From: Clostridia bacterium
Lineage (GTDB): Bacteria > Bacillota_A > Clostridia > Christensenellales > Aristaeellaceae
Assembly (NCBI GenBank): GCA_017432405.1
Contig: JAFRJF010000152.1
Coordinates: 1 to 32,239 of the forward strand
Length of the DNA stretch: 32,239 bases
Reading direction: 5' to 3'
Part shown: one piece after another, positions 6,291 through 31,376 of the stretch
Numbering within the stretch: position 1 is the stretch's first letter
How the letters are laid out: every line of letters begins with the position of its first letter
The notes under the pieces: model-generated
The model's input: only the letters and a program-made list of their open reading frames with translations
Told to the model about the DNA's origin: nothing
Databases searched by the model: none
Made by a program: the position numbers and the translations under genes

Positions 6291-7337
6291 ATGAATATCA
6301 AACGCATCGAAAAGGTCACCCAGAATATGCGCGCCTGCGGGCTTCGGCAGATCATCGTCTCCAGCACCGCCAACGTGTACTACCTCACCGGCGTGTGGTG
6401 CGAGCCCTTTGAGCGCATGCTGGCGCTGCTGGTGAAGGACAGCGGCGAGATGACGCTGTTCGCCAACCGCATGTTCGCGCTGCAGGGGCTGACGGACGTG
6501 CCCATGGTCGAATACGAGGATACCGACGACTGCGTGGCGGTGCTGGCGCCCCACGTGCTGCCGGGGAAGGTCGGCATCGACAAGACCTGGCCCAGCCACT
6601 TCACCATCCGCCTGATGCAGCAGCGCCCGGACGTCGTGCCGGCCCTGGGCAGCCAGCCGCTGGACGACGCCCGCCTGACCAAGGACGCGGAGGAGCTTGA
6701 GCTGATGCGCATCAGCTCAAAAAAGAACGTGGAGGTCTGCGACCGCATCGCCAGCGCCCTGAAGGAGGGCGTCACCGAGAAGGAGATCCAGGCGCTGTAC
6801 ATACAGATCGCCCGGGAGCTGGGCTCTCCGGGCCCAAGCTTCACGCCGCTGATCTGCTTCGGCCCCAACGGCGCGGAGCCCCACCACGACAGCGACGGCA
6901 CGAAGCTGGTGTCGGGCAGTACCGTCATCATGGACGTGGGCCTGCTCTGGCAGCACTACTGCAGCGACATGACCCGCACCGTGCACTTCGGCGCGGTCAC
7001 TGACGAGGAAAAGCGGGTGCACGAGATCGTCACCGCCGCCAACCGCGCGGGCATCGCCGCCTGTCGCCCCGGGGTAAAGATGAAGGACATCGACCGCGCG
7101 GCGCGAAAGGTGATCGAGGACGCCGGTTACGGCCCGTACTTCACCCACCGCACCGGCCACGGCATCGGCCTGGACGAGCACGAGTTCCCGGACTGCTCCT
7201 CCGTCAGCGAAACCGTCACCCGTCCCGGCATGATCTTCTCCATCGAGCCCGGCATCTACCTGCCCGGCAAATTCGGCGTCCGGGTGGAGGACCTGGTAGC
7301 CATCACCGAGGACGGCTGCGAGGTGCTGACGTGGTAA
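6291..7337 (+). CDS. M24-family metallopeptidase (Xaa-Pro aminopeptidase / prolidase type)
   Basis: A 348-residue cytoplasmic peptidase with a creatinase-like N-terminal domain (to about residue 125) and a pita-bread catalytic domain. All five metal ligands of the M24 family are visible: Asp215 (IMDVGLLW), Asp226 (CSDMTRT), His290 (RTGHGIGL), Glu319 (SIEPGIY) and Glu333 (RVEDLVAI). Members release N-terminal residues before proline or split Xaa-Pro dipeptides; which activity applies here cannot be told. The start ATG follows the deaminase stop by 7 nt with only a weak GAGAGAA site, consistent with translational coupling. Downstream lie a palindromic element and a strong terminator. Confidence 0.87.
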   Translation: MNIKRIEKVTQNMRACGLRQIIVSSTANVYYLTGVWCEPFERMLALLVKDSGEMTLFANRMFALQGLTDVPMVEYEDTDDCVAVLAPHVLPGKVGIDKTWPSHFTIRLMQQRPDVVPALGSQPLDDARLTKDAEELELMRISSKKNVEVCDRIASALKEGVTEKEIQALYIQIARELGSPGPSFTPLICFGPNGAEPHHDSDGTKLVSGSTVIMDVGLLWQHYCSDMTRTVHFGAVTDEEKRVHEIVTAANRAGIAACRPGVKMKDIDRAARKVIEDAGYGPYFTHRTGHGIGLDEHEFPDCSSVSETVTRPGMIFSIEPGIYLPGKFGVRVEDLVAITEDGCEVLTW

Positions 7338-7353
7338 TTCTGTTTTGAACATT

Positions 7354-7425
7354 ACTGTTCTTTCGCATGCAAATACTGATTTGTAGGGCTGCGACAAATC
7401 AGTATTTACCTGACTGAACATACGC
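7354..7425 (+). repeat. 72-nt palindromic intergenic element, copy 1
   Basis: The core is a perfect 14-bp stem, AAATACTGATTTGT (7371-7384) with its complement at 7394-7407, around a 9-nt loop. Including its flanks, 61 of 72 bases match the reverse complement of 13157-13228. It begins 16 nt after the peptidase stop codon. It has no T-run of its own. Confidence 0.8.
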
Positions 7426-7435
7426 TTTAAAACGA

Positions 7436-7479
7436 CAAAGAGAACCCGTTTTTCGGCTGTGAAAAACGGGTTCTCTTTG
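7436..7479. terminator. Bidirectional terminator between converging genes
   Basis: A perfect 19-bp stem (7436-7454 with 7461-7479) has a 6-nt loop. The A-rich left edge and T-rich right edge let it end transcripts from both directions: the peptidase gene on the plus strand and the Cys/His-repeat gene on the minus strand. Confidence 0.85.
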
Positions 7480-9226: not shown

Positions 9227-9241
9227 GGGAAAATGACGATC

Positions 9242-10510
9242 TTACCCCAGCAGCAGGTTCGGCAGCCAGGTGACGATGCTTGGCAGGTAGGTCACCAGGG
9301 CCAGCGTGGCGATCAGCGGGAGCAGGAAGGGGAGTATGGACTTGTACAGGCTCTCCAGCCTGACCTTGTTCACGTCCGAGATGACGAACAGGCAGACGCC
9401 GAAGGGCGGCGTCACCTGGCCGATCATCAGGTTCAGCACGACCATCACGCCGAAGTGCACCAGGTTCAGACCCAGGCCATTGGCGATGGGCAGCAGCACC
9501 GGCAGCATCAGCGTCAGGATCGCGCCGGGCTCCATGACCATGCCCAACAGCAGCAGCAGCACGTTGATGACCAGCAGGATCACGTTGGGGTTGCTGCTCA
9601 CGCCCAGTATGAAGTCGGCCATCTGGCGGGAGATGCCCTCCATCGCCATCACGTAGGTAAACAGCGTGGCGGTGCCGATGATGAACAGCGTGTTGGCCGA
9701 GGAGATCGCGGAGTCCTTCAGGCACTTCAGGAAGTCCTTCCAGCCCAGCGACCGATACACGAATATCGCCACCAGCAGCGAGTAGATCACCGCGATGCTG
9801 GAGGCCTCGGTGGGGGTGAACCAACCGAGGGTGAAGCCCGAGAGTATGATCAGCGGGCTGCCCAGCGCGGGGATCGAGTAGAGGAACTGCTTGATGAAGC
9901 GACCCAGGTTGAAGCTGTGGCGCTCGTATTTGCGCACGATGGCGAAGATCAGTATCAGCACCATCAGCAGCACGCCCATCAGCAGGCCGGGGACCACGCC
10001 GCCCATGAACAGGCGCTCGACCTGCACGCTGGCGACGCTGCCGTAGATGATCAGCGGTATGGACGGCGGGAAGATGGGCCCGATGACCGAGCTTGCGGCG
10101 GTCACCGCGCCGGAGAACTCCTTGTCATAGCCGTTGGTGGTCATGGCCTCCATCTCGATGGCCCCCAGGCCGCCGGCGTCCGCCACGGCGGAGCCGGACA
10201 TGCCGGCGAATATGATGCTGGCCACCACGTTGGCGTGGGCCAGGCCGCCGGGGATCCAGCCCACCAGCTCCTTGGCGGTGTCGAACATCTTCTTGGTGAG
10301 CTTGCTGGCGTTCATCAGGTTGCCCGCCAGTATGAACAGCGGCACGGCGATCAGCAGGAACGAGTCGATGCCGCTGACCATCTTCTGGCCGATGACGACC
10401 ATGGGGTAGCCCAGGGACAGGCAGCCCAGTATCGCCGACGCGCCGATGGAGATGCTGATGGGCACGCCGATCACCAGGAATACGACGAACGCGATGATGA
10501 ATATGGTCAT
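9242..10510 (-). CDS. dctM: TRAP transporter large permease subunit
   Basis: A 422-residue, very hydrophobic protein with about a dozen helices and the DctM family's glycine-rich segments (FAGMSGSAVADAGGLGAIE; GPIFPPSIPLIIYGS; GQVTPPFGVCLFV). It forms the sodium-driven channel of a TRAP importer together with DctQ and takes organic acids from the binding protein DctP. It is the last gene of kduI-dctP-dctQ-dctM, and its ATG overlaps the dctQ stop by four bases (ATGA). Length is normal. The company of kduI suggests an acidic sugar, such as a uronate or its unsaturated derivative, as substrate. Confidence 0.92.
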   Translation of the reverse strand: MTIFIIAFVVFLVIGVPISISIGASAILGCLSLGYPMVVIGQKMVSGIDSFLLIAVPLFILAGNLMNASKLTKKMFDTAKELVGWIPGGLAHANVVASIIFAGMSGSAVADAGGLGAIEMEAMTTNGYDKEFSGAVTAASSVIGPIFPPSIPLIIYGSVASVQVERLFMGGVVPGLLMGVLLMVLILIFAIVRKYERHSFNLGRFIKQFLYSIPALGSPLIILSGFTLGWFTPTEASSIAVIYSLLVAIFVYRSLGWKDFLKCLKDSAISSANTLFIIGTATLFTYVMAMEGISRQMADFILGVSSNPNVILLVINVLLLLLGMVMEPGAILTLMLPVLLPIANGLGLNLVHFGVMVVLNLMIGQVTPPFGVCLFVISDVNKVRLESLYKSILPFLLPLIATLALVTYLPSIVTWLPNLLLG

Positions 10511-11025
10511 GCGGCGCCCTCCTCTCCGGTCGCGGGCAGCCTGCCCGTCAGCACCAGTATGCGCTCAATGACCTGCTCGACGGTCTTGACGGCGATGTAG
10601 ATCCCCGCGATCATCATCGGCACATACTGCACCGTGTAGGGGACCTTCACCGAGAAGGTCTGGTAGGTGCGGGTGCTGACGAAGGGATACTGGTAGATGA
10701 AGGCGACGACCATCACGACGCCCAGCATCAGGCTCACGCCCTTGTTGACGAAGTAGAGCACCTGGGCCATGGGGCCGTGGACGCGGGCGGCCAGGAAGTC
10801 CAGCCGCATCAGGCCGCTTTTACAGTAGAGGGGGATCAGCCCGATAAAGGCCATCCACAGGAATATGATGCCGCAAAGCTGTATGTTTCCGGCGAAGGAC
10901 TGGTTGAAGAAGTTGCGGCGCACCAGCTCCAACACGATGGCGATCACCAGGCCCGCGATGGCCGCCATGACGATCCACTCGGCGACCTTTGCGATGCCCT
11001 CGGTGATTTTCTTGCAGGTTTTCAT
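10507..11025 (-). CDS. dctQ: TRAP transporter small permease subunit
   Basis: 172 residues with four helices, starting KVAEWIVMAAIAGLVIAIVLELVRRNFFN, the usual DctQ opening. It pairs with DctM in the inner membrane and is needed for a working TRAP importer. An AAAGGGG site lies just upstream of the ATG at 11025. Between it and dctP lies a 15-bp hairpin that may hold membrane-subunit expression below that of the binding protein. The four-base overlap with dctM indicates coupled translation. Confidence 0.9.
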   Translation of the reverse strand: MKTCKKITEGIAKVAEWIVMAAIAGLVIAIVLELVRRNFFNQSFAGNIQLCGIIFLWMAFIGLIPLYCKSGLMRLDFLAARVHGPMAQVLYFVNKGVSLMLGVVMVVAFIYQYPFVSTRTYQTFSVKVPYTVQYVPMMIAGIYIAVKTVEQVIERILVLTGRLPATGEEGAA

Positions 11026-11042
11026 AGTTGCCCCTTTCAGTT

Positions 11043-11076
11043 ATTGAGGGTGCATAGCAAACTATGCACCCTCAAT
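11043..11076 (-). terminator. Intercistronic hairpin between dctP and dctQ
   Basis: A perfect 15-bp stem, ATTGAGGGTGCATAG (11043-11057) with its complement (11062-11076), and a 4-nt loop. No T-run follows on the minus strand, so it more likely protects the upstream dctP message or attenuates than fully terminates. Confidence 0.65.
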
Positions 11077-11092
11077 GCTTTCAGATCGGTGA

Positions 11093-12091
11093 TCAGCGCA
11101 CGACGGCCAGGATGGCGTCCAGCAGCTCCTGGCTGTACCAGCTCTCGCCCTCATAGCGCTTGTAGTACTCGTCGCCGCCCAGGGCGTCCTTGAAGGACTG
11201 CACGTCGGGCTCGAAGTTGAACTCCACGCCGGCGTCCTGCAGCACCTTGGTGGCGGTCTCGTTGTCCTCGGCGATGGTGTCGAAGCTGTACTTCGCGGCG
11301 ACCTTGGCCTGCTCCTTCAGGATGTCCTGCACCTCGGCAGGCAGGGAAGCCCACTTGGCGGCGTTCACGGCCATGGTGCAGCCCATCCACATGTAGTTGA
11401 TGTTGGAGAAGTACTTGATGCTGTCATAGGTGGCGTTGGCGACCAGGTGATAGGTGGCGTTGTCCTGGCCTTCGGCGGTGCCGTTGGCAAGGGCGGGGGC
11501 CAGCTCCGGCAGGGCCAGGCCGATGGGGGTGGCGCCCAGGGCGGACCAGACGTCCAGGTACAGCTGGCTCTCGGGCACGCGGATCTTCAGACCCTTCACG
11601 TCCTCGGCGGTGTTGATGGGCCGGTTGGTGGTGGAGATGTGGCGCATGCCGTTGTCGCCCTCGGCCAGGTACACCAGGCCGAAGTCCTCGAAGTTCGCGA
11701 AGATCTTCTCGCCGATCTCGCTGTTGGTCACCTCATAGGCCTGCTCGGCGCTGTTGAACAGGAAGGGCAGGTCCAGAACCTTGGCGGGCTCATAGAAGGA
11801 GGTGAAGCCGGAGGTGCCGGCGAAGATGATGTCGATGGTGCCCATGCGGGTGGACTCGATCGCCTCGGCGTCGTTGCCCAGCTCGTTGGAGTGGTGCACG
11901 TCCAGGGTGATGGCGCCGTCGGAGGCCTCGGAGACCAGGCGCGCGTACTCGACGATGGTCTTGGTGGGCACGGCGTTCTCGTTGCCGGGGGAGTAGATGA
12001 CCAGCTTGACGGGCTCGATTTCAGCCAGCGCGAAGCTGCCCAGCATCAGGATCATGGCGGCGGTCAGAAGCATGCAGAGAAGTTTTTTCAT
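11093..12091 (-). CDS. dctP: TRAP transporter substrate-binding protein
   Basis: 332 residues with a signal peptide (MKKLLCMLLTAAMILMLGSFALA) and a likely cleavage after ALA, near residue 23. The body is DctP-like: GIDIIFAGTSGF-type segments, the helix region LKIRVPESQLYLDVWSALGATPIGLALPELAPAL, and the Arg of KIRVPES that in this family contacts a substrate carboxylate. It works outside the membrane, delivering an organic acid to DctQM. AGGAGG lies 9 nt before the ATG. It is 66 nt downstream of kduI and co-directional with it, so a keto-uronate or related acid is a reasonable but unproven ligand. Confidence 0.92.
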   Translation of the reverse strand: MKKLLCMLLTAAMILMLGSFALAEIEPVKLVIYSPGNENAVPTKTIVEYARLVSEASDGAITLDVHHSNELGNDAEAIESTRMGTIDIIFAGTSGFTSFYEPAKVLDLPFLFNSAEQAYEVTNSEIGEKIFANFEDFGLVYLAEGDNGMRHISTTNRPINTAEDVKGLKIRVPESQLYLDVWSALGATPIGLALPELAPALANGTAEGQDNATYHLVANATYDSIKYFSNINYMWMGCTMAVNAAKWASLPAEVQDILKEQAKVAAKYSFDTIAEDNETATKVLQDAGVEFNFEPDVQSFKDALGGDEYYKRYEGESWYSQELLDAILAVVR

Positions 12092-12157
12092 CGTTGGATT
12101 CCTCCTGTTCTATTATCCACAGGACGTTTCCCGCCCTGCGATATACCTGTAGATATG

Positions 12158-13000
12158 TTACCTAAGCTCGGTGGTGGGGATGCCGTCCATGTCGTCGAAG
12201 GCCTGGTTTTCGCCGCCCATGGCCCAGATGAAGGTGTAGTTGCTGGTGCCAGCACCGGCGTGGATGCTCCAGGACGGGGAGATGACGGCCTGCTCGTTCT
12301 GCATCACGATGTGGCGGGTCTCGGTGCCCTCGCCCATGAAGTGGAACACGACCTCGTTCTCGGGAACCTCGAAGTAGAAGTAGACCTCCATGCGCCGCTC
12401 GTGGGTGTGGGCGGGCATGGTGTTCCACACGCTGCCCGGCTCCAGCACGGTCATGCCCATGGACAGCTGGCAGGTCTTCAGCACGTCGGGATGGATGAAC
12501 TGGTTGATGACGCGCTTGTTGCTGGTTTCCGCCGCGCCGCAGGGCTTCTTGGCCGCGTCGGCGATGCGGATCAGGCGGGTCTCATAGCTGGTGTGAGCAG
12601 GGGCCGACACGATGTAGAACTTTGCCGGCTGCGCCGGATGGTCGGAGGCGAAGGTGACCTCCTTCGCGCCGCGGGTGACGTACAGGCAGTCCTTGTAGCC
12701 CAGCTCGTACACCTTGCCGTCCACGGTGACGGTGCCCGCGCCGCCCACGTTGAACATGCCGCATTCCCGGCGCTCCAGGAAGAAGTGGGTGCCGAAGTTC
12801 TTCCACACGTCGATGCCCTTGTCGATGGCCACGGTGTCGCCCACGGGCATGATGCCCAGGGTCACCATGCGGTCCACATGGCTGTACACGGCCACGACCT
12901 CGTCGGGCACGAACAGCTTTTCGATCAGGAACTCGTTGCGGGTCTCCTCGGTGGTGTAGCGCTTGAAATCGCGCTGGTTGCAGGAATAACGGATGTCCAT
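12158..13000 (-). CDS. kduI: 4-deoxy-L-threo-5-hexosulose-uronate ketol-isomerase
   Basis: A 280-residue cupin-fold enzyme that interconverts 5-keto-4-deoxyuronate and 2,5-diketo-3-deoxygluconate, a step in the breakdown of unsaturated uronates from pectin or glycosaminoglycans. The zinc ligands are intact: His198, His200 and Glu205 in MPAHTHERRMEVY, and His247 in SWSIHAGAG, each offset by two from the E. coli enzyme. The start at 13000 is chosen for the AAGGAG site upstream and the normal length; the 26-residue upstream extension would run into the promoter. It leads an operon with a TRAP transporter. No kduD gene is in the window. Confidence 0.94.
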   Translation of the reverse strand: MDIRYSCNQRDFKRYTTEETRNEFLIEKLFVPDEVVAVYSHVDRMVTLGIMPVGDTVAIDKGIDVWKNFGTHFFLERRECGMFNVGGAGTVTVDGKVYELGYKDCLYVTRGAKEVTFASDHPAQPAKFYIVSAPAHTSYETRLIRIADAAKKPCGAAETSNKRVINQFIHPDVLKTCQLSMGMTVLEPGSVWNTMPAHTHERRMEVYFYFEVPENEVVFHFMGEGTETRHIVMQNEQAVISPSWSIHAGAGTSNYTFIWAMGGENQAFDDMDGIPTTELR

Positions 13001-13078: not shown

Positions 13079-13104
13079 CGGTCAAAGTAAGATTGGGCAG
13101 ACAA

Positions 13105-13148
13105 AGAATCCCCCTTCCGACGCGCCAGGGCGGGGAAGGGGGGCTTTG
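13105..13148 (-). terminator. Probable terminator downstream of lon
   Basis: CCCCCTTCC (13110-13118) pairs with GGAAGGGGG (13134-13142). Outer AAAG/CTTT bases extend the stem with an interruption. On the minus strand it is followed by ATTCTTTG, a weak T-run. It lies beyond the palindromic element that follows lon. Confidence 0.5.
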
Positions 13149-13156
13149 ATATCGGT

Positions 13157-13228
13157 GCATATATTCAGTCAGGGAAATACTGATTTGTCGCAGCGCGACA
13201 AATCAGTATTTGCATTTGCCTGAACAGC
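13157..13228 (-). repeat. 72-nt palindromic intergenic element, copy 2
   Basis: A perfect 17-bp stem (13175-13191 with 13195-13211) with a 3-nt loop. Read on the minus strand, 61 of 72 bases match copy 1 at 7354-7425. It starts 15 nt after the lon stop codon, the same placement and orientation as copy 1 has behind its own upstream gene. Confidence 0.8.
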
Positions 13229-13243
13229 TATGACATAACATTA

Positions 13244-15544
13244 TCACATCGCCTTCGGCATCCCGGATGCCACAGGCATGCCCAGGGCCAGCAGCACCTC
13301 GGCGATGGTATCCACGGGAACGATCTCCAGCGCCTGCTTGACCTCGTCCGCCACGTCCTTCAGGTCGTCCAGGTTGTCCCGGGGGATGAACACCCTCTTC
13401 ACGCCGCTGCGCTGGGCGGCCATCAGCTTCTCCGGCAGGCCGCCGATGGGGTTCACGTCCCCCTGCAGCGACACCTCGCCGGTCATGGCCGTCTCCGGCG
13501 GCACGGCGACGCCTGTCAGCAGCGAGGCCAGCGCGGTGGTCAGCGTGATGCCCGCCGAGGGGCCGTCCTTGGGAGTCGCGCCGTCGGGCACGTGGATGTG
13601 CAGGTCGCTGCCCTCCAGCGTCTGCGCCTGCTCCGGCAGCATGGCCTTCACCAGGCTGACGGCGATCCGGGCCGACTCCTTCATCACGTCGCCCAGCTGG
13701 CCGGTGACGGTCAGCTGGCCGCTGCCGTGGGTCAGCAGGCTCTGGATATACAGTATGTCGCCGCCCACAGGCGTCCAGGCCAGGCCGGTGACGATGCCGG
13801 GGCGGGCGCCTTCGGGCACGTGCTTGCGGCGCACCGGGTTCATATCCATATACTCCGAGAGGTTTTCCTCGGTGACGGACAGCTTCGCCTCGGGGTCGTC
13901 CACCATGGCCACCGCCGCGCTGCGGCACAGCTGGTCCATGCGCTTCTTCAGGCCGCGGACGCCCGCCTCCCGGGTGTAGTGCTCGATGACCGCCTCGATG
14001 GCTTCGTCGGAAACCGTCAGCGCGCCGTCGGGGACGCCCACCTCGGCCATGGCCCGGGGCAGCAGGTGCTTCCGGGCGATCTCGCGCTTCTCGATGGGCG
14101 TGTAGCCCTGGAAGCGTATGACCTCCATGCGGTTCAGCAGCGGCTCGGGGATGGTGTCCAGCGTGTTGGCGGTGCAGATGAACAGCACGTCCGACAGGTC
14201 GAAGGGCACGTTCAGGTAGTGGTCGGTGAAGGAGAAGTTTTGCTCCGGGTCCAGCACCTCCAGCAGGGCGCTGGAGGGGTCGCCGTTGTAGCTCTGGGAC
14301 AGCTTGTCCACCTCGTCCAGCACCATCACCGGGTTGTTGGCCCCGCACTTGTGGATGCCGTCGATGATGCGCCCCGGCATGGCCCCGATATAGGTGCGCC
14401 GGTGGCCGCGGATGTCGGCCTCGTCCCGCACGCCGCCCAGGGAGACTCGCACGTATTCGCGGCCCAGGGCCTGGGCGATGCGCTCGCCGATGGAGGTCTT
14501 GCCGGTGCCCGGCGCGCCGACGAAGCACAGGATCGAGCCGGACTGGCGTCCCTTCAGCCGCATCACCGCCAGCTGCTGGAGGATGCGCTTCTTCACCTTG
14601 TCCAGGCCGGAATGCCCGGCGTTCAGCGCGGCCCGGGCCTCGTCCATCGAAATGTCCTTCGCCTCGGCCTTTTTCCAGGGCAGGCTGGTCAGCAGGTCCA
14701 GCCAGTCGGTGAGCATGCCCGCCTCAGGGCTGTTGGCGCCCTCGCCCTTGATGCGGTTGAGCACCTTGCGCCCCTCCTTCAGGGCGGTCTCGTTCATCCC
14801 GGCCTCCTCCAGCTTCAGCTCCAGACGCCGCAGCTCGGAGACGTTCTCCGGGTGCAGGGCGTCCAGCTCCTTCTGCAGGTATTCGATCTGCTTTTTGATG
14901 GCCGACTCCCGGTACAGCTTCTCGTGGTCCTCCTGCTGGGCGCTCTGGGCCGCGCTCTGCACGTCCGCCAGCTCCAGGCCCTCCAGCAGCATCCGCTCCA
15001 GGGCGTCGAACCGTGCGGACAGGCTGTCCTCGGCCAGCAGCGCGTAGCGCTCCTCCGAGGGCGCGCTCAGCCAGGGGGACATGGTCGCCGCCACCGTCCA
15101 CAGGCTGTCCCAGTGGGCGGCGAAGCCGCGCAGCATGCCTTCCCACTGCTTGCCCCGGGCGAAGCTGAGGATGCGGTCCTTCACGCCGGTCAGGCGCCGG
15201 GCGGCGTCGGCGGGGTCCAGGTCGTCCAGGTCCGCTCGGCGGGAGACAGTCATGCTGAAGCTGCGGTCCCGCAGCACGGCCACCTCCTCGATGTTCACCC
15301 GGTTCTGGATGTCCACGCAGACGTAGCCGTTGGCGTTGACCTCCGAAATGGCGCCGGTGACCCCGATGGGCCGGAAGCTGTCGCCGTCCAGCGCCGCGCG
15401 GGGCTGCTCGTCCTTCTGCACCAGCAGCGTCACCCGCTCGCCCTCGACGGGGGCCTTGCCGGTCAATTCCTTATAGATCCTGGTCTGCAGCCACAGCTTC
15501 GCGCCGGGCAGGGCAATGATATTGTACAAAGGCATGACGGACAT
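13244..15544 (-). CDS. lon: ATP-dependent protease Lon (endopeptidase La)
   Basis: 766 residues, normal for LonA. An N-terminal substrate-binding domain (1-~200) and a helical coiled region (~200-260) precede the AAA+ module. The Walker A is GAPGTGKT (343-350) and the Walker B is VMVLDEVDK (407-413). The protease domain follows, with catalytic Ser663 in KDGPSAG and Lys706 in GGLPEKL, 43 residues apart as in E. coli Lon. It degrades damaged and regulatory proteins in the cytoplasm. AGGAGGT lies 6-7 nt before the ATG. The gene is divergent from a TetR-family regulator, and its promoter contains a palindrome shared with that gene plus a second one in the leader. lon may therefore be under this local repressor, an inference. 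Confidence 0.95.
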   Translation of the reverse strand: MSVMPLYNIIALPGAKLWLQTRIYKELTGKAPVEGERVTLLVQKDEQPRAALDGDSFRPIGVTGAISEVNANGYVCVDIQNRVNIEEVAVLRDRSFSMTVSRRADLDDLDPADAARRLTGVKDRILSFARGKQWEGMLRGFAAHWDSLWTVAATMSPWLSAPSEERYALLAEDSLSARFDALERMLLEGLELADVQSAAQSAQQEDHEKLYRESAIKKQIEYLQKELDALHPENVSELRRLELKLEEAGMNETALKEGRKVLNRIKGEGANSPEAGMLTDWLDLLTSLPWKKAEAKDISMDEARAALNAGHSGLDKVKKRILQQLAVMRLKGRQSGSILCFVGAPGTGKTSIGERIAQALGREYVRVSLGGVRDEADIRGHRRTYIGAMPGRIIDGIHKCGANNPVMVLDEVDKLSQSYNGDPSSALLEVLDPEQNFSFTDHYLNVPFDLSDVLFICTANTLDTIPEPLLNRMEVIRFQGYTPIEKREIARKHLLPRAMAEVGVPDGALTVSDEAIEAVIEHYTREAGVRGLKKRMDQLCRSAAVAMVDDPEAKLSVTEENLSEYMDMNPVRRKHVPEGARPGIVTGLAWTPVGGDILYIQSLLTHGSGQLTVTGQLGDVMKESARIAVSLVKAMLPEQAQTLEGSDLHIHVPDGATPKDGPSAGITLTTALASLLTGVAVPPETAMTGEVSLQGDVNPIGGLPEKLMAAQRSGVKRVFIPRDNLDDLKDVADEVKQALEIVPVDTIAEVLLALGMPVASGMPKAM

Positions 15545-15641: not shown

Positions 15642-15745
15642 ATTTACAATCACCGGGCAGGGGACGGTGGCGGCAGATTGCGACACGGAGTTAGTCCTTT
15701 AGGGCCGCCACGATACGAATTGATACCTATACTTGGAGGATACGG

Positions 15746-29511: not shown

Positions 29512-30456
29512 ATGACAAAGGAAATGCCGGGAATCGTGCGTCCTGAATTGCAAGCATTGCCCCAGGTTGGCGACCGCATGACATTTCTCTATCTTGAACG
29601 ATGCGTTATCAACCGGGAGGATGGAGCGATTACAGTTAAGAATGAAAAGGGCGTCATTCACATACCTGCTGCAATGATAAGCGTATTGATGCTTGGACCA
29701 GGTACGACCATAACCCATCGCGCTATGGAATTGATAGGGGATACAGGCGTTAGTGCCATATGGGTTGGAGAGCGGGGCGTCAGGTATTATGCCGCGGGGC
29801 GTCCGCTTACCGGCAAAGCGAATCTGCTGCTCAAACAGGCGGAATTGGTTACCAATATGCGCTCTCATCTCGCAGTAGCCAAAAAAATGTATCAGATGAG
29901 ATTTCCCGAAGAGGACGTTAGCCATCTGACAATGCAACAGCTTCGTGGCAGGGAGGGGGCGCGTGTGCGTGGCATCTACCGCAAATGCGCTCGGGAATCC
30001 GGCGTGACATGGAATGGGAGAGATTACAATCCAGATGATTTTTCCGCAAGTGATTCCATAAATCAGGCCTTGTCGGCTGCTCATCAGTGTTTGTATGGGC
30101 TTGCAGCAGCGGTCATACAAGCATTGGGATGCTCTTTGGGTCTGGGCTTTGTTCATGTTGGGCATGAATTGTCATTTGTCTATGATATAGCAGATCTCTA
30201 CAAAGCCGAATTCAGTATTCCGATTGCCTTCAGATGTGTTGCGCAAGCTCCGGAGGATCTGTGTGGGACGGTTCGACGCGAGGTGCGCGACGCAATGGCA
30301 CACGGCAAGCTAATATCTCGCATGGTGCATGATTTGCAGTTTTTGCTGAATGGAGAAGAGAACATGGACGATAATGTGAATGTCGTTTATCTGTGGGACG
30401 ATCGATTTGGTAACATTCACAACGGAATCAACTTTGAGCGGGAGGGAGACGCGTGA
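29512..30456 (+). CDS. cas1: CRISPR adaptation integrase Cas1, type I-E
   Basis: 314 residues, close to the ~305 of E. coli Cas1. Metal-binding residues are in place: Glu148 in GREGARVRG, His215 in GFVHVGHEL and Asp225/Asp228 in FVYDIADLY, with the same spacing as E. coli E141/H208/D218/D221. It inserts new spacers at the leader end together with Cas2. The start at 29512 has AAGGGG about 8 nt upstream; the 40-residue upstream extension overlaps cas6e in another frame and is not Cas1-like. The stop overlaps the GTG start of the next gene. Confidence 0.95.
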   Translation: MTKEMPGIVRPELQALPQVGDRMTFLYLERCVINREDGAITVKNEKGVIHIPAAMISVLMLGPGTTITHRAMELIGDTGVSAIWVGERGVRYYAAGRPLTGKANLLLKQAELVTNMRSHLAVAKKMYQMRFPEEDVSHLTMQQLRGREGARVRGIYRKCARESGVTWNGRDYNPDDFSASDSINQALSAAHQCLYGLAAAVIQALGCSLGLGFVHVGHELSFVYDIADLYKAEFSIPIAFRCVAQAPEDLCGTVRREVRDAMAHGKLISRMVHDLQFLLNGEENMDDNVNVVYLWDDRFGNIHNGINFEREGDA

Positions 30457-31376
30457 TCGTTGTAACTCTGACGGATTGTCCCCCTGCCCTGCGTGGCGAC
30501 TTGAGTAAATGGCTACTTGAGATCAATACAGGTGTATATATTGGGCAGGTTAATGCGAGAGTACGGGACAAGCTGTGGCAAAGAATTACACAGAACATTA
30601 AGTGTGGCCGTGCAACTATGGTGTTTGATGCACAAAATGAACAAAGAATGGATTTCAGAATTCACAATACCTCCTGGGAAATTGTGGATTGTGATGGAAT
30701 TAAGCTTATAAGGCGGCCTTCGGAGCAACGGTTGGCGGAAATCAAGGATGCAGGAGAAGGTGTATTGGTGCCTGGCTTTTCGAATGCAGCCAAGTACTTA
30801 CAGCTAAGTAGATTACAAAAGTCCCAAGGAAAGACAAATGCTTCCAACGGAAAACTGAGGAAAGGCTGTGTTTCGAATTGCACGGTGGTGGATATCGAGA
30901 CGACAGGCTTGGATGCAGATAACGACAGCATCGTTGAAGTGGCTGCGTTGCGTGTGCGTAATCTGCAGCCTGTCGAGGAATATAGCGCGCTGATCCGGAT
31001 TGAGCGTTCTTTGCCTGACAGCATAATCCAATTAACGGGGATAACAGACGAAGCACTTGCAGAAAGCGGAATCCCTCTTTTTAAAGCGCTTCAATCATTG
31101 TTGGAATTTATAGGCGAGGATATTATGTTAATTCACAATGCATCCTTTGATCTTGCGTTTTTGAGAAACAACTTGGCACGGCAGGGTTTGCCGGCGCTGA
31201 ACAATAAATCATTGGATACTTGTCAGTTGGCACGAAAAGCTTTTCTGAATGTGTCCGATTACAAGTTGTCAACGCTGGCTCGCCATTACAGCATTGAGCA
31301 AGCAATTCAACATAGAGCATTGGAGGATTGCAGGGTAACCTTGGATGTCTACAAGGCCATTGCTCAAACTGAATGA
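30453..31376 (+). CDS. cas2: Cas2 fused to a DnaQ-like DEDDh exonuclease
   Basis: 307 residues. Residues 1-~95 are a type I-E Cas2 (VVTLTDCPPALRGDLSKWLL, then EINTGVYIGQV). After a ~45-residue linker, residues ~143-305 form a DEDDh 3'-5' exonuclease with all five residues: Asp147 and Glu149 (VVDIETTGL), Asp233 (HNASFDLAFL), His287 and Asp292 (HRALEDCRVT). Fused Cas2-DnaQ proteins are known, for example in S. thermophilus type I-E, where the exonuclease trims pre-spacers before integration. The GTG start overlaps the cas1 stop (GTGA). The gene ends 52 nt before the first repeat. Confidence 0.94.
   Translation: MIVVTLTDCPPALRGDLSKWLLEINTGVYIGQVNARVRDKLWQRITQNIKCGRATMVFDAQNEQRMDFRIHNTSWEIVDCDGIKLIRRPSEQRLAEIKDAGEGVLVPGFSNAAKYLQLSRLQKSQGKTNASNGKLRKGCVSNCTVVDIETTGLDADNDSIVEVAALRVRNLQPVEEYSALIRIERSLPDSIIQLTGITDEALAESGIPLFKALQSLLEFIGEDIMLIHNASFDLAFLRNNLARQGLPALNNKSLDTCQLARKAFLNVSDYKLSTLARHYSIEQAIQHRALEDCRVTLDVYKAIAQTE

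Follow-up and report, generated by a model that had tools for sequence, protein, structure and literature searches.

A palindromic element behind two unrelated genes as the probable solo form of a non-autonomous mobile repeat family in Clostridia

Why does the same short palindrome stand shortly behind two unrelated genes? In the window, the whole 32,239-nt stretch of DNA analysed here, one copy (copy A) follows an M24 metallopeptidase gene and the other (copy B) follows lon (Table 1). A first-pass annotation of the letters alone had offered two readings, a REP/MITE-like element that survives in 3′ untranslated regions or a true RNA element of the 3′ end. The evidence assembled below favours the former: copies A and B are probably solo elements, the minimal form within a family of palindromic DNA elements that are small, mobile and non-autonomous. 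This family looks REP/MITE-like and concentrated in one genus; the set of forms that replace one another is unusual, and copies are over-represented at stop codons.

The two copies and the anatomy of the element

Copy A and the reverse complement of copy B agree at 61 of 72 bases in an ungapped alignment, with the stem arms conserved as annotated, and the extended match (pair I1) reaches 84% over 76 nt. For comparison, 300 random 72-mers from window positions 1-31400 gave a mean best match of 37 and a maximum of 60, the latter perhaps from 72-mers sampled on the element itself. With up to three mismatches allowed, the 16-nt arm AAATACTGATTTGTCG occurs four times in the window against 0.13 expected, a count reached by 0 of 100 shuffles. 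Folded as DNA, both copies beat 200 of 200 shuffles (z -4.4 and -7.4 for A and B, respectively), and RNA folding gave z values of -4.0 and -7.4. The annotated spacing was likewise confirmed, with copy A beginning 16 nt after the M24 stop, which ends at 7337, and copy B 15 nt after the lon stop at 13244-13246. Copy A lies between convergent genes and copy B between two genes in the same direction; the orientation to the upstream gene, noted as the same at both, counts as weak evidence because the element is nearly palindromic. The lon-side gap also contains a perfect consensus promoter-like site before kduI (13078-13050, minus strand).

Table 1. Positions of the two copies, their arms and the adjacent features in the window
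Feature	Position	Strand	Remarks
M24 metallopeptidase gene	6291..7337	+	upstream of copy A
Copy A, solo palindromic element	7354..7425	+	between M24 peptidase gene and convergent gene
Copy A, left stem arm	7371..7386	+	one mismatch to AAATACTGATTTGTCG
Copy A, right stem arm	7392..7407	-	exact AAATACTGATTTGTCG
Separate hairpin behind copy A	7436..7479	+	-31.2 kcal/mol, z -8.1
Separate hairpin between copy B and kduI promoter	13102..13148	-	-25.5 kcal/mol, z -2.6
Copy B, solo palindromic element	13157..13228	-	behind lon; paired form here in G001 (L197)
Copy B, outer arm TTCAGTCAGG	13164..13173	+	partner GCCTGAACAG at 13218-13227
Copy B, arm farther from lon	13175..13190	+	exact AAATACTGATTTGTCG
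Copy B, arm nearer lon	13196..13211	-	exact AAATACTGATTTGTCG
lon protease gene	13244..15544	-	upstream of copy B

The stem consists of (G)TAAAT(T/A)CTGATTT(G/A)TCG and its partner around a short loop, and two solo hairpin types are distinguished, H1 (..TGATTTGTCG) and H2 (..TGATTTATCGAGC). Of 175 distinct elements, 127 stand alone and 48 form pairs; this set allows three mismatches and includes chance matches, one of them at window 30036-30065 in the cas region. A paired element is laid out as H1, heptad arrays, a core, inverted heptad arrays and H2; its 7-nt units are, for example, GGTTTTA or GTGGCTA, and the same arrays return inverted past the core. The hairpins of 45 pairs lie 110-244 nt apart, and 43 of these 45 combine a pure H1 hairpin with an H2-type hairpin. 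The stem arm also occurs singly, in inverted pairs that form the terminal inverted repeats of larger elements with varied non-coding interiors, for which there are 34 candidates of 96-406 bp (31 under another filter), some perhaps mispaired (two have one end in common).

The two arms agree at the G/A column in 263 of 288 hairpins, compared with 18 of 31 terminal-repeat elements (p 6e-6), so that, judged from sequence comparison, the palindrome seems to have been made or kept as a unit and not joined from two independent ends. An origin of the solo form by simple internal deletion was rejected, as this would often leave mixed H1/H2 arms, which only 25 of the 288 hairpins have. The hairpin sets of 292 and 213 used in parts of this work are looser or differently filtered than the set of 118 elements considered below.

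Two other repeats are found in the vicinity. Outer TTCAGTC arms, with one mismatch allowed, accompany 18 of 140 elements (3 of them on both flanks), against 21 of 1107 intergenic 22-mers in the control; because they occur at only 18 of 140, they were rejected as part of the element and are regarded as a separate, favoured neighbour. Arms resembling TTCAGTC/GACTGAA stand on one or both sides in the stretches L005, L017, L072, L144, L152 and L289 (1740-2030) and also occur in genomes without the exact core (L213, L264); they seem to be a further palindromic repeat. Arrays of 7-nt units lie behind the M24 gene in L175, L178 and L183, from genomes of the genus without the exact hairpin core, and L178 has such an array with an inverted partner array; these arrays constitute a second, wider repeat system.

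Distribution across genomes and forms at shared sites

The nearest relative of the window's genome is G001, with 68% of sampled 31-mers in common. The first-pass annotation had suggested a search of the whole genome and of relatives for further copies, and in relatives these are abundant: exact H1 cores number 142 in G001, 119 in G009, 82 in G026, 15 in G018, 2 in G025 and 1 each in G020 and G010, with none in the other 21 of the 28 genus genomes searched. Outside the genus, the exact core was found in one of 272 other genomes of the family, as one copy. A scan of 84,980 species genomes yielded at least 120 stretches with the element, and among the 80 scan matches listed, 79 come from Clostridia or Clostridiales MAGs and one from Gilliamella. 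Rfam gave 0 hits in the window at the gathering cut-off, in line with the annotation, which had recognised no named family, and a search of titles and abstracts found no work on such a repeat family in these bacteria. IMG/VR, PLSDB and phage records, which may omit entries very close to the genome of the window, contained no match, and a viral, plasmid or phage source was accordingly rejected.

One and the same site can hold different forms of the element. The lon site, with the same flanking regions on either side, carries a solo H1 in the window and a pair in G001; the solo of L107 occupies the same site as the pair of L114; and at a further site three forms are found, a solo H2 in L155, a pair in L057 and a terminal-repeat element in L070. 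The end of the L114 gene carries pairs in G009 and G018, solos in G001 and G026 (the latter decayed) and no element in G010, G014, G020 and G008. Diverged look-alikes lie farther downstream of this gene in G010 and G008, where related hairpins with other stem sequences seem to be present; since genomes with at most one exact core appear to have such hairpins, the patchiness of the family may partly be divergence. The M24 site is seemingly empty in G018, which keeps the downstream hairpin and has different flanks, and in G001 nothing but an element-like left portion remains, with 1.4 kb behind it that contain three small reading frames (L289 13144-14346, beside the apparent left half of the palindrome).

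A clean empty site was obtained at none of the sites compared, the G018 M24 site having the different flanks just described. A 391-bp difference between window 15647-15704 and G001 was rejected as an empty site, because the window retains a piece of the interior, and no target duplication is readable there for the same reason. The G001 stretch, otherwise mostly colinear with the window, lacks 9229-12158 (TRAP-type transporter genes by eye). Taken as a whole, the many dispersed copies, the patchy bursts between sister genomes and the alternative forms at one site bear out the annotated likeness to REPs and MITEs.

Placement at stop codons and the possibility of an RNA function

Placement was assessed on the window and 118 of the 120 scan stretches with a home-made gene caller based on codon usage, leaving out L075 (Gilliamella), L142, duplicates and elements less than 300 nt from a locus end; this caller misses AT-rich genes and lost most cas genes of the window. 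In that cas region, positions 30453-31376 encode Cas2 fused to a DnaQ-like exonuclease (Pfam Cas_Cas2CT1978 and RNase_T), and a CRISPR array with 61-nt spacing follows the fusion gene; we take the system to be type I-E, and fusions of Cas2 with a DnaQ-like exonuclease are already known.

None of 118 elements lies inside a called gene (300 nt considered on both sides); 70 are in tandem, 27 in convergent and 19 in divergent gaps and 2 at an edge, with 116 classed after two lacking a gene on one side were dropped. An element is present in 26 of 58 convergent, 71 of 237 tandem and 19 of 76 divergent gaps (convergent versus the rest, p 0.02). The annotated link to stop codons persists in a changed form: the stop codon lies inside the outer bases of the element (TAAATTCTGA) at 46 of 124 stop-side contacts against 18.0 (sd 3.0) expected from random placement in the same gaps, a number that none of 2000 permutations reached, but stems 1-15 nt behind the stop are not enriched (15 versus 19.0 expected). 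On the start side, overlap is found at 0 of 108 contacts (8.0 expected), and elements 1-15 nt before a start are rare (4 versus 12.0 expected). The stop ends 9 nt into the element in 20 of 43 genes (TGA of AAATTCTGA), 2 nt into it in 16 (mostly TAA of TAAATTC), 1 nt into it in 6 and just before it in 1.

Where this could be judged, genes that end inside the element have not been shortened by much. The MetY stop codon in G009, where the element is present, occupies the same position as in G026, G001, G023, G028 and others, where it is absent; SpoIIE-like proteins end in RVEER both in G009, with the element at the stop, and in the window, without one; and the end of the L114 gene comes some two codons before that of its G010 counterpart. 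Among 20 such genes, 9 reach within 4 positions of the end of their family model (Spo0A, MetY, PyrR, chorismate synthase, CobQ, GlpK, LarC2 and phosphoglycolate phosphatase-like and MetI-like proteins, the last two with matches below the curated cut-off). The other 11 have no such model match, having no family, a match that ends earlier or a domain elsewhere in the protein.

Because the overlap with stop codons exceeds chance, the element may to some extent target gene ends or function there. A more far-reaching proposal, which we offer tentatively and consider rather doubtful, is of an element that is directed to stop codons, or retained there, and comes to provide translation termination for its host genes (spo0A, pyrR and the genes of chorismate synthase and glycerol kinase among them). 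A single locus would then change between solo, paired and terminal-repeat forms through an enzyme that copies an element end onto itself.

The same overlap at 46 of 124 stop sides, together with strong and co-varying stems, could also be read as the mark of a functional RNA hairpin at mRNA 3′ ends, which would stabilise transcripts or, within 15 nt of the stop, stall ribosomes and lower expression. A precedent exists in E. coli, where REPs within 15 nt of stop codons are reported to stall ribosomes (PMC12306157). The compensating changes that the annotation associated with a functional RNA are found in one respect, as the two sides of a stem change together and stay paired (one position, for example, is T-A in 132 cases and A-T in 58). 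Where a single side has changed, however, the mispairs read on the strand of the gene comprise 27 G-U versus 41 A-C in 132 hairpins (p 0.11) and thus reveal no G-U excess on the transcript strand. Nor is there a fixed orientation, H1 coming first in 20 and H2 in 19 pairs relative to the upstream gene. The interval of 1-15 nt behind the stop, in which stalling would act, is unenriched, copies also occur before starts and, in 19 of 116 classed elements, between divergent genes, presence and form vary at one gene among close species, and the exact copy is absent from most sister genomes. At the M24 site, moreover, one relative lacks the element but still has the downstream hairpin. The annotated alternative of a true 3′-end RNA element is therefore not upheld, and an RNA function of this kind appears improbable.

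Candidate movers and comparison with known repeats

Somewhat less probable still, and in our estimate very unlikely, is a true REP element with a RAYT (Y1 tyrosine transposase) as its mover. The element does resemble REPs in its short intergenic palindromes, high copy number, dimers of two hairpin types and 3′ bias, and Y1 matches are present in 16 of the 28 genus genomes, including all four element-rich ones (G001, G009, G018 and G026), with a single arm about 0.5 kb from a Y1 match in L240 of G009. Against this, no H1/H2 hairpin was found at any of the 30 Y1 loci examined, out of 45 Y1 matches; the element is present in G020, G025 and G010, none of which has a Y1 match, and in 12 of the 24 genus genomes that are not element-rich a Y1 match occurs but no exact element copy. 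The 13 nt around the hairpin foot show no excess of either GTAG (13/194 versus 17/344 in the control) or CGTC (2/194 versus 24/344). A RAYT or IS200 mover was rejected, given the 30 Y1 loci without the hairpin and the one (L240) with a single arm. The RAYT-type genes in L247 and L249 seemingly stand beside another repeat, probably a REP family of their own, and in L247 frames reading KEPVPVTH or TEPVPVTH lie on both sides of the gene.

A transcription terminator, which strong hairpins behind stop codons might suggest, is scarcely credible: of the terminator-like hairpins annotated after each copy, separate hairpins do fold there (Table 1), but a simple scan detected a T-tailed terminator at neither copy, and G018 keeps the hairpin of the M24 site without the element.

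The reading of copies A and B as solo forms of a mobile DNA family was also examined for traces of movement. No mobilising enzyme was found. Inspection by eye of the sequences flanking the 34 terminal-repeat candidates showed no target-site duplication, and comparable sites look old. A larger, coding version was likewise missing: in the loci examined, no gene was seen between single arms and partners up to 6 kb away, and none turned up among those of the 244 G009 arm matches that were listed, which include at least 13 inverted pairs of 184-349 bp.

Among known systems, the element resembles REPs and BIMEs as short intergenic palindromes of high copy number, frequently in dimers and near the 3′ ends of genes; REPs with GTAG or CGTC tags and their RAYTs are described in PMC3733652, which also includes CGTC REPs without a known transposase. 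It differs from them in having no excess of GTAG or CGTC at its foot, no RAYT seen beside its hairpins, arms that double as terminal repeats of larger elements and stop codons inside the element. MITEs such as RUP, ERIC/IRU and Correia are, in their generally known features, non-coding and intergenic, with terminal inverted repeats, varied interiors and patchy bursts, all of which the present family shares; it differs in showing no visible target-site duplication and no parent insertion sequence and in having as its commonest form one end duplicated as a hairpin. PATE-type non-autonomous IS200/IS605 elements bear a hairpin at each end and cause no visible target duplication, as does the paired form, which differs in showing no short conserved target, by eye, beside either element end. 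A further difference is that a strong Y1 match of the 173-aa kind is intact in G018 and G024 alone; the G003 copy has stops, G027 and G019 retain pieces, and G001, G009 and G026 have no such match.

A plausible course of events can be outlined for the mobile family. A transposase acting in trans on the arms may spread it in bursts in a few species, and hairpins may arise when one end of the element is copied back on itself. Copies would then be retained in positions where the harm is slight, between genes and also at stop codons, since the outer bases TAAATTCTGA supply a stop in two of the reading frames; if the hairpin influences the upstream mRNA at all, this would be a by-product. The family represents a repeat that appears in bursts across close species with differing forms at one site, so that its sequences may reveal how REP-like palindromes originate from the ends of elements. 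In addition, dozens of natural genes have their stop codon within a repeat that forms a hairpin, and these provide a ready test set for the effects of hairpins at stops.
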